DNA of 42,301 nt from Nocardioidaceae bacterium (GTDB taxonomy: Bacteria > Actinomycetota > Actinomycetes > Propionibacteriales > Nocardioidaceae). Below are positions 4,267-42,301 of the stretch, in pieces. A program made the translations under genes and the position numbers. Every line of letters starts with the position of its first letter. The first letter of the stretch is position 1. Under the pieces are notes generated by a model. It was given only the letters and a program-made list of their open reading frames with translations. It had not been told where the DNA came from and ran no database searches. The DNA lies in contig JAICKK010000009.1 of NCBI GenBank assembly GCA_025927955.1, positions 1 through 42,301 of the forward strand, written 5' to 3'.

Positions 4267-4291
4267 GTACCCGTCGCCCCTGAGGTCAAAC
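4267..4291 (-). promoter_or_regulatory. Sigma-F/SigB-type promoter for the hemerythrin gene
   Basis: Read on the minus strand, GTTT (4288-4291) is followed after exactly 15 bases by GGGTAC (4267-4272). This matches the GTTT-N14-17-GGGTA(T/C) consensus known for mycobacterial SigF and Streptomyces SigB-family promoters. The predicted start near 4260 gives a leader of about 34 bases carrying the GGAAGGAG site. A matching sigma-factor gene lies at 21690-22601. Confidence 0.7.
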
Positions 4292-21660: not shown

Positions 21661-21710
21661 CGCACCGGTCACCGCACACCGCACACCGGTCACCGCACAC
21701 CGGCCACCGG
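21661..21710. repeat. Short tandem repeat overlapping the sigma-factor 3' end
   Basis: Units of cgcacaccggtcac (14 bp) occur at 21680 and 21694, with shorter versions at 21661 and 21673. The repeat includes the sigma gene stop (21690-21692), so slippage would change the last residues (QPVAGVR) of the protein. Confidence 0.65.
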
Positions 21711-22601
21711 CTGCCGGCCGCGCTCCGCCGAGCGCGGAGGCGAGGTCCGCTGACGGGGTGGTCGGTGCGGGCCCTGCAGGTGCTCGGGCTCCTCCGGCGT
21801 GGTGAGCGCCTCGCGGAGGTCACGCAGGATCCGGGCCAGGAGGCGGGACACCTGCATCTGCGTCACGCCGATGTCCTCGGCGATCTCCTGCTGGCTGCGC
21901 TGCTCGAAGAAGCGGAGCTCGACGATCCGCCGGTCGCGCCGGCAGAGCCGGCGCACCGCCGGGCCGAGCACGGCGCGCGCCTCGGCCGCCTCCAGCGCGC
22001 TCTCCGAGAAGCCGATGCAGTCGCCGAGGGTGACCGCGGACCCCTCGCCGCCCGGCGTCGTCGGGCGGTCCAGCGACGCGGGGCTGAAGCAGCTGTCGGC
22101 GGCGAGGGCCTCGACGACGTCGTCGACGGTGCAGGAGAGGTGGACGGCGACCTCGCTCGGCCGCGGGGAGCGGCCCAGCGTCTGCTGCAGCTCCTCGGTG
22201 GCCCGGCGGATGGCGTACTGCATCTCCTGGATCCGGCGCGGGGGACGGACCACCCACCCGCGGTCGCGGAAGTGCTTCTTGAGGGCGCCGCGGATGCTGG
22301 GGACCGCGAAGGCCATGAAGCTCTGGCCCTTGTCGAGGTCGAACGTCCGCACCACCTTGACGAGCGTCAGGTAGGCGACCTGCTCGAGGTCCTCGTCGGC
22401 GATGCCCCGGTTGCGGTACCTGCGGGCCAGGCTGCGCGCGACCTCCATGTGCAGCCGCACGATCTGGTCCCGCGCGGCCCCGGCCTCCGCCGTGTCCGCG
22501 CCGGCCCTGGCCACGTCGAACAGCCGGCGGGTCGCCTGCTCGCGCCCCGGGTCGTCGAGATCCTGCGGTGCGGGGTTCCTGTGATCCATGTGAATTGTCA
22601 T
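21690..22601 (-). CDS. SigB/SigF/SigG-family RNA polymerase sigma factor (303 aa)
   Basis: A group 3 sigma-70 protein of the general-stress type. Region 2 is seen at about 45-115 (RLHMEVARSLARRYRNRG, DLEQVAYLTLVKVVRTFDLDKGQSFMAFAVPSIRGALKKHFRDRGW), region 3 at about 120-180, and region 4 at about 215-270 (RRDRRIVELRFFEQRSQQEIAEDIGVTQMQVSRLLARILRDLR). The N-terminus and the Pro/Arg-rich tail (HLQGPHRPPRQR) are variable. ATG at 22599-22601 follows GGGAGG; a GTG ten codons earlier is less likely. No anti-sigma or anti-anti-sigma gene adjoins it, which is unusual. It is the natural candidate to read the GTTT-N14/15-GGGTAC promoters at 4267 and 39668. Confidence 0.93.
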   Translation of the reverse strand: MTIHMDHRNPAPQDLDDPGREQATRRLFDVARAGADTAEAGAARDQIVRLHMEVARSLARRYRNRGIADEDLEQVAYLTLVKVVRTFDLDKGQSFMAFAVPSIRGALKKHFRDRGWVVRPPRRIQEMQYAIRRATEELQQTLGRSPRPSEVAVHLSCTVDDVVEALAADSCFSPASLDRPTTPGGEGSAVTLGDCIGFSESALEAAEARAVLGPAVRRLCRRDRRIVELRFFEQRSQQEIAEDIGVTQMQVSRLLARILRDLREALTTPEEPEHLQGPHRPPRQRTSPPRSAERGRQPVAGVR

Positions 22602-22709
22602 GAGCCTCCCATCGCGCGATCGGGAGGCCACCGACTTCTTCAGCGGCCCGGTCGGGCCCTCAGCCCGGCAGCCGTGTCGGCTTCCGGGACGTCCAGGTCC
22701 GACATGGCC

Positions 22710-39427: not shown

Positions 39428-39494
39428 GGATATCCCGTTGCCCTTCGTGCTGTGCTCCGTCGCGTTCCCCGCCAGTGTGGGGGTTCGACCCGCC

Positions 39495-39512
39495 GCGCGT
39501 CCCGCGACGCGC
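39495..39512 (-). terminator. Hairpin after the 46-codon gene
   Basis: GCGCGTC-CCGC-GACGCGC is a perfect 7-bp stem, five bases after the small gene's stop (39518-39520) in its own direction. It supports a short, separately ended transcript. Confidence 0.5.
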
Positions 39513-39517
39513 AGAAC

Positions 39518-39658
39518 TCACCGACGGACGGGCTCGCTGTTGATGTCCTGGCGAGGTTGCGCCTGCTCGATCGGGTGTCGCCAACAGTCCCAGGCCAGGG
39601 CCGCCGTCAGCCCGGCGCCGAGCAGGGAGCCGATCATCGTGGGGAGTGCGACATGCAT
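39518..39658 (-). CDS. 46-residue putative small membrane protein
   Basis: ATG at 39656-39658 opens a 46-codon frame that stops with TGA at 39518. The N-terminal half is hydrophobic (LPTMIGSLLGAGLTAALAW, about 5-23), the C-terminal half is polar (WRHPIEQAQPRQDINSEPVRR). This is a plausible one-pass membrane peptide or cleaved product. Support comes from context: a consensus sigma-F/SigB-type promoter whose -10 ends nine bases before the ATG, no competing gene in the interval, and a hairpin just after the stop. It lacks a clear ribosome-binding site, as expected for a near-leaderless message. No homologue is known to me. Confidence 0.6.
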   Translation of the reverse strand: MHVALPTMIGSLLGAGLTAALAWDCWRHPIEQAQPRQDINSEPVRR

Positions 39659-39667
39659 GGCGCCGTG

Positions 39668-39691
39668 GTACCCATCGCCGCGGAATCAAAC
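39668..39691 (-). promoter_or_regulatory. Sigma-F/SigB-type promoter upstream of the 46-codon gene
   Basis: On the minus strand GTTT (39688-39691) and GGGTAC (39668-39673) are exactly 14 bases apart, matching the group 3 stress-sigma consensus in full. The -10 ends nine bases before the ATG at 39658. Confidence 0.7.
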
Positions 39692-39733: not shown

Positions 39734-40267
39734 TCACGTCCCGCGCGGCTGGCGGGGACGTCTGTAGGCCGGTGCCCGGGTGCCCGGCCGCAACGGGGAG
39801 GACTCGAGCAGCGGCAGGATCCGGGGCGCGACCAGCACCGACAAGGTGACGACGCTGGTCGAGCGGACCACGGCGGGAGACCCGTTGATCCGTAGCAGGG
39901 TGGTCTGCAGCTCCGCGTGCGACGGTGTCGCCACCTTGCACAGCACGTCGGCAGAACCGGTGGTGACGTAGGCCTCGAGCACGTGCGGGATGTCGGCGAG
40001 GTCGCGGGTGACCCGGTCCAGGGCGCCCTGTGCGATCTCGAGGGTCACGAACGCCTGGACCGGGTGGCCGGCGGCGGCCGGGTCGATGCTCGGCCCCCAG
40101 TCAGCGATGACGCCGGCCTCCTCAAGGCGCCGGAGCCTGCTCTGCACCGTGGCCCGCGCCACCTGGGTGGCGCGCGCGAGGTCGACGTCGCCGGCGCGCG
40201 GATGGTCCCGGAGCGCGGCCAGCAGCGCGACGTCCAGCTCGTCGAGCGGGTATCCGGCATCGACCAT
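39734..40267 (-). CDS. Lrp/AsnC-family transcriptional regulator (177 aa)
   Basis: An N-terminal winged helix (DELDVALLAALRDHPRAGDVDLARATQVARATVQSRLRRLEEAGVI, about 9-53) is followed by an AsnC/RAM ligand-binding domain (about 70-150, with AYVTTGSADVLCKVATPSHAEL). Such regulators commonly bind amino acids or related acids. Divergent orientation to hpd, with dyads between, points to control of tyrosine catabolism, probably with an aromatic metabolite as effector; that is inference. ATG at 40265-40267 follows a GGGGG stretch. Confidence 0.88.
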   Translation of the reverse strand: MVDAGYPLDELDVALLAALRDHPRAGDVDLARATQVARATVQSRLRRLEEAGVIADWGPSIDPAAAGHPVQAFVTLEIAQGALDRVTRDLADIPHVLEAYVTTGSADVLCKVATPSHAELQTTLLRINGSPAVVRSTSVVTLSVLVAPRILPLLESSPLRPGTRAPAYRRPRQPRGT

Positions 40268-41997: not shown

Positions 41998-42301
41998 GGA
42001 CCTCGACCAGCGTCGTCACCACGTCGGTCGAGGTGCCGAGGCGCCAGCCGAGGCCTCGAGACCAGCGGCGGGGGTCCGGGTCACGTTGGTCGAGGTGGTG
42101 AGGCGCTGGCCGAGGCCTCGAGACCATGGTCAGGTCTGCGCGCAGGTGGCCATGGTTTCGAGGCCCTCGCCCTGGGGGCTCGGGCACCTCAACCAGCGGC
42201 GGGGGTCCGGGTCACGTTGGTCGAGGTGGTGAGGCGCTGGCCGAGGCCTCGAGACCATGGTCAGGTCTGCGCGCAGGTGGCCATGGTTTCGAGGCCCTCG
42301 C
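41998..42301. repeat. Palindromic intergenic repeats with a 131-bp direct duplication
   Basis: A partial element (about 41998-42060) is followed by a 131-bp unit (42061-42191) and its direct copy (42192 to the window end). The visible 110 bases of the two copies are identical. Each unit is the reverse complement of the family at 13437-13551: arms with ttggtcgaggtgg and cacctcaacc, and an inner stem around accatgg with a ctgcgcgcag core. The block continues past the window. Confidence 0.9.

Follow-up and report, generated by a model that had tools for sequence, protein, structure and literature searches.

The window analysed here is the whole of a 42,301 nt stretch of DNA from a Nocardioidaceae bacterium, contig C188 of genome G000 (3.79 Mb, 87% complete). 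Near its right end an Lrp/AsnC-type regulator gene and a 2H-phosphoesterase / 2′-5′ RNA ligase-like gene lie on the minus strand, and a short unlisted reading frame with a putative promoter of its own is located between them. The features considered in the following are:

39734–40267, minus strand: Lrp/AsnC-type regulator gene, 5′ of the small gene and on the same strand
39688–39691, minus strand: GTTT, −35-like box of the putative SigB/SigF-type promoter
39668–39673, minus strand: GGGTAC, −10 box, separated from GTTT by 14 nt (N14)
39518–39658, minus strand: small gene of 46 codons, predicted to be leaderless, product MHVALPTMIGSLLGAGLTAALAWDCWRHPIEQAQPRQDINSEPVRR
39493–39514, minus strand: GC-rich hairpin behind the small-gene stop, with a 9-bp stem and a 4-nt loop
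38777–39427, minus strand: 2H-phosphoesterase / 2′-5′ RNA ligase-like gene, 90 nt 3′ of the small-gene stop
21690–22631, minus strand: gene for a sigma factor of the SigB/F/G family, also in the window and a candidate for recognising promoters of this type

The ATG of the small gene is at position 39658, 9 nt after GGGTAC (N9), and its TGA stop codon occupies 39520–39518. The regulator gene ends 75 nt upstream of this ATG, and a 4-hydroxyphenylpyruvate dioxygenase-like gene (40431 onward) is oriented divergently to it. Promoter, ATG, 46-codon frame and hairpin were all recovered on the minus strand in the layout given for them in a preliminary description of this DNA.

Comparison with a second genome indicates that the 46-codon frame is very likely a real protein-coding gene. 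G006, a member of the same genus, encodes MHLALSSMVGSLLGTGLISALAWDWWRHPLEPQRVREQNDSARR at the equivalent locus (record JAICLD010000128.1; E 1.1e-12, 58–59% identity), and the gene order AsnC regulator, peptide, 2H-phosphoesterase is common to both. Over the 43 aligned codons the two sequences differ 13, 7 and 18 times at codon positions 1, 2 and 3, respectively; within the first 31 codons the counts are 7, 1 and 13. The corresponding Nei-Gojobori dN/dS values are ~0.44 and ~0.23. The sole indel comprises two whole codons, the annotated frame obtained the top score among the six possible frames, and the similarity at the protein level was equalled in only 1 of 2000 column shuffles. Nucleotide identity amounts to 69% inside the frame and to 31% past the stop codon. 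The GC content by codon position (0.70/0.53/0.83) is similar to that of the neighbouring genes, and a comparable hydrophobic ATG frame of 27–60 codons appeared in ~0.06% of trials with one strand of composition-matched random DNA of 306 nt, a size equal to the interval between the genes that flank the small gene. Because the frame is conserved in relatives, and with a substitution pattern of the coding type, the earlier suggestion of an unannotated gene holds. It had been proposed that relatives keeping the promoter but not the frame would speak for a non-coding RNA or chance; in G006, the single close relative at hand, this was not the case.

More diverged relatives were found at loci other than that shared by the window and G006. 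The one in G005 (MLTVIGSIVTIGTVSALIWDWWSHP..., E 6e-4) resides on a 3-kb contig that lacks the AsnC gene; next to the AsnC gene of G005 there is no copy of the peptide gene, and a glycosidase-like gene follows there. A profile built from the window, G006 and G005 peptides added MLTFALALAITVPLVAALGLDWWRHP... in G004 and MLAMIIGTTVTAGTVAALVRDWLLHPDL in G003, both remote and, at E ~2e-5 per genome among 341 genomes, marginal by themselves. A five-member profile recovers its own members by construction, and we did not count this as proof of homology. The G004 relative is supported independently of its profile score, because the joint pattern GGGTA-N10-ATG-N42..72-D(W/C)W-x-HP matches there as well: it was present in 3 of 335 family genomes (the own genome, G006 and G004, all in the genus), and the reversed control of the GGGTA-N10-ATG and D(W/C)WxHP pattern gave no match in the same 335. 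The G004 frame continues without an early stop for ~120 codons, the later part of which is not coding-like. No relative was detected in G001 and G002, two near-complete genomes of the genus, and beyond the genus the three- and five-member profiles yielded weak matches only, mostly within long frames, which we took as chance. There was also no plasmid match to the small gene. No model of Pfam, NCBIfam or PHROGs scored above its cut-off (the best Pfam hit, PepSY_2 with E 0.21, was far below), in agreement with the initial view that the peptide may not have been described before. Since the small gene fits, on the testable features, the general kinds of a SigB/SigF-type regulon gene, a leaderless small protein and a small single-pass membrane protein, and matches no curated family, it is a new family of a known, ordinary kind that is undescribed in the libraries searched.

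The putative promoter resembles those of known SigB/SigF regulons. The SigF consensus of M. smegmatis is GTTT-N14-19-GGGTA (PMC4694148), and promoters of the SigB homologues of S. coelicolor have a −10 element with nearly invariant GGG and A and a less conserved −35 element (PMC8346170). The GTTT and GGGTA boxes are shared with these regulons and the spacer is inside the M. smegmatis range; the differences are the distance of 9 nt from the −10 box to the start codon, the position of N14 at the short end of that range and an undescribed target family. The exact GTTT/GGGTAC string with spacers of 13–17 nt occurs at 15 sites in the 3.79-Mb genome and at 6 in the reversed control, so that the two boxes alone are ~2.5-fold above chance and constitute weak evidence. 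Among the spacers seen across the family N14 is the least used (8 of 104 sites, vs 48 each for N15 and N16), and no clear preference for N9 was seen among the N14 sites (2 of 8). To call the promoter a consensus was therefore slightly generous, although N14 falls within published spacer ranges. GGGTA is found at the same distance from the ATG in G006 and G004, in the latter as GGGTAC with the ATG 9 nt on, and in G003 the arrangement is GTTT-N15-GGGAAC, a variant −10, followed by the ATG after 9 nt. The G005 relative is without a −10 at N9, and the −35 GTTT is degenerate in both G006 and G004.

Strong evidence for the promoter of the small gene comes from its distance to the start codon. In the seven genomes of the genus, the boxes were followed by an ATG 4–16 nt downstream at 14 distinct sites, vs 1 in the control, and in 10 of these 14 the ATG stood exactly 9 nt after the −10 box. 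With even placement and correction for the 13 possible offsets the chance of this is ~7e-8 with the window site included and 7e-7 without it, bearing in mind that the 14 sites are partly orthologs and therefore not fully independent. The same distance recurred in 41 of 104 sites in 74 further family genomes. A leaderless layout with GTTT-N15/16-GGGTAY exactly 9 nt before an ATG thus recurs throughout the family (e.g., L095–L109). The genus genes behind such sites include those for Dps-like ferritins, for DUF3072 proteins and for acidic proline-rich proteins that form a family without a Pfam model, the sort of genes that a general stress response would be expected to comprise; the small gene shares its promoter geometry with these stress-type genes. 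Its start is predicted from this geometry to be leaderless, and it is not preceded by a Shine-Dalgarno sequence. In M. smegmatis about one transcript in four is leaderless (PMC6448022). Mycobacterial small proteins translated from leaderless mRNAs (PMC4633059, PMC6448022) likewise have a short frame that opens at, or close to, the expected transcript 5′ end and lacks a Shine-Dalgarno sequence; no sequence relation to them is known, and here the leaderless start is deduced from geometry.

Sigma factors that might read such a promoter are present in the genome, with two matches to the SigB/F/G family that exceed the TIGR02980 cut-off and three that narrowly miss it. Among the latter is the gene at 21690–22631 (minus strand) in the window, which scored 230.7 bits against a curated cut-off of 234.35 and is one candidate among several for acting at the small-gene promoter. 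With these factors and the family-wide N9 geometry, the assignment of a stress-sigma promoter with a near-leaderless ATG is supported.

Several further genes with this type of promoter were observed. DUF3072-type genes start 9 nt after it both in the own genome (L109, G000:C246:285) and in G006 (L099, G006:C83), which suggests that DUF3072 proteins function in the general stress response. A family of acidic, proline/glycine-rich proteins of ~95–121 residues (DAPAPPGGPLR...ENAxTSLDQPSDG) lies behind the leaderless promoter in five genus genomes (L100 at G000:C112:3500, L095, L097, L098 and L106); the one member scanned had no Pfam match. The window itself harbours a second such promoter, GTTT-N15-GGGTAC at 4267–4291 on the minus strand, followed after 40 nt by an ATG that is preceded by GGAAGGAG; the gene that starts there looks hemerythrin-like, a weak assignment below the Pfam cut-off for the first 60 residues, which were scanned.

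The product of the small gene is predicted to form one hydrophobic helix of residues 4–27 (mean pLDDT of the model 69, core 78–86), long enough to span the membrane as in single-pass proteins. KD17 hydropathy is moderate in the window peptide (1.54) and ranges from 1.54 to 2.41 across it and its four relatives. A polar basic tail (R27, H28, R36, R45 and R46) and the motif AL-x2-D(W/C)W-x-HP complete the peptide. Taken together, promoter type, hydropathy and predicted helix are what suggests a stress membrane peptide.

The best reading is that the small gene probably encodes a leaderless, stress-induced single-helix membrane peptide, which may be co-transcribed with the 2H enzyme; location and function are deduced from the features above. 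We assign a probability of roughly 0.72 to the full explanation, comprising a SigB/SigF-type promoter, leaderless translation and a single-helix membrane peptide that would bind or tune a partner. Transcription would occur from the SigB/SigF-type stress promoter under general stress or in stationary phase, and the transcript would start at or a few bases from the ATG at 39658, in which case translation would be leaderless. Residues ~3–23 would cross the membrane and leave the nearly uncharged N-terminus outside. According to the positive-inside rule the basic tail would be cytoplasmic, and the D(W/C)WxHP motif would be positioned at the membrane interface. Many small stress membrane proteins bind or tune partner proteins, and the peptide would most likely act in the same manner under stress, by binding a partner through this motif. 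The mRNA may extend into the downstream 2H-phosphoesterase gene, whose product is a positional candidate for the partner, although the G003 and G005 relatives are not beside such a gene. The peptide can be likened to Prli42 of Listeria, which is tied to the stressosome (e.g., PMC9840623), by the common form of a very short protein with one helix and a charged tail in a stress context; it is not classed as a member. We consider it quite improbable, as a further step, that a genus-restricted family of leaderless stress-induced membrane peptides uses a conserved D-(W/C)-W-x-H-P motif at the interface to dock a soluble protein to the membrane during stress, perhaps the 2H-phosphoesterase encoded next door. 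If true, the peptides would represent a new type of small protein that regulates the turnover of RNA or cyclic nucleotides in actinobacteria.

The hairpin right after the stop codon, also reported in the preliminary description, is present, beginning 3 nt past it, and its stability is not above chance (z −1.7 over 30 nt, −1.1 over 60 nt; an equally stable hairpin occurs in 10% of random 60-mers with the composition of the window). It lacks a T-run, no intrinsic terminator was called at the small gene, and its stability is near chance; it is probably not a terminator, and this reading was rejected. Because the hairpin is not terminator-like and only 90 nt separate the stop from the 2H gene on the same strand, the idea of a complete, autonomous transcription unit could not be upheld. 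The small gene may instead head a stress operon with the 2H-phosphoesterase, in which the peptide would be the membrane partner of the enzyme or an upstream regulator acting by translational coupling. This arrangement is a realistic possibility that we rate somewhat below even odds: the two genes are on the same strand at a distance of 90 nt in the window and 60 nt in G006, with no terminator between them, and their order is conserved, but in two genomes only. In G003 and G005, peptide relatives and 2H genes are found at separate places, and peptide and 2H gene therefore need not depend on each other.

Expression mainly together with the upstream Lrp/AsnC regulator, with a coincidental GGGTAC and a gene outside the stress response, appears unlikely. 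It draws on G006 (L002 1420–1501), where the regulator frame is about ten codons longer than in the window and stops at the TAG of GGATGGGTAG. The regulator frame thus terminates inside the −10-like box GGGTAG, at a distance of 9 nt from the start of the peptide gene, and in G006 the peptide is possibly co-transcribed with the regulator. The non-conserved GTTT and the atypical N14 spacer are also compatible with this view. On the other hand, GGGTA-N10-ATG is present in G004 at another locus, N9 is favoured for leaderless starts across the family, and in the window 75 nt separate the regulator from the peptide.

Type I toxin peptides are small and have a hydrophobic helix and a basic tail, and in size, its single predicted helix and its short basic tail the window peptide is alike in general form. 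A hydrophobic toxin silenced by an antisense RNA is nevertheless very unlikely here, as there is no second copy in the own genome, no Rfam match and no sigma-70-type promoter call on either strand, and a fixed place next to ordinary chromosomal genes in G006; within these searches neither an antisense RNA nor repeats were found at this conserved locus. That the frame is open by chance or belongs to a non-coding RNA, a view for which its shortness and the slightly stable 30- and 60-nt folds behind it might be cited, is the least probable alternative and is already largely refuted by codon-level conservation (third-position bias, two-codon indel, start and motif conserved in relatives), the ordinary folding of the whole transcript (z +0.6) and the lack of an Rfam match.

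Promoter geometry can reveal short genes that length cut-offs skip. A sigma-B-type −10 element exactly 9 nt before the start marks leaderless genes family-wide, including genes without a known family, and the N9 rule offers a testable route to small stress proteins that have stayed hidden in non-model actinobacteria. At the right end of the window, a perfect 110-nt direct repeat (42061–42170 and 42192–42301) with related 45-nt units was observed, the second copy of which ends at the contig end and is probably the reason why the assembly stopped there.
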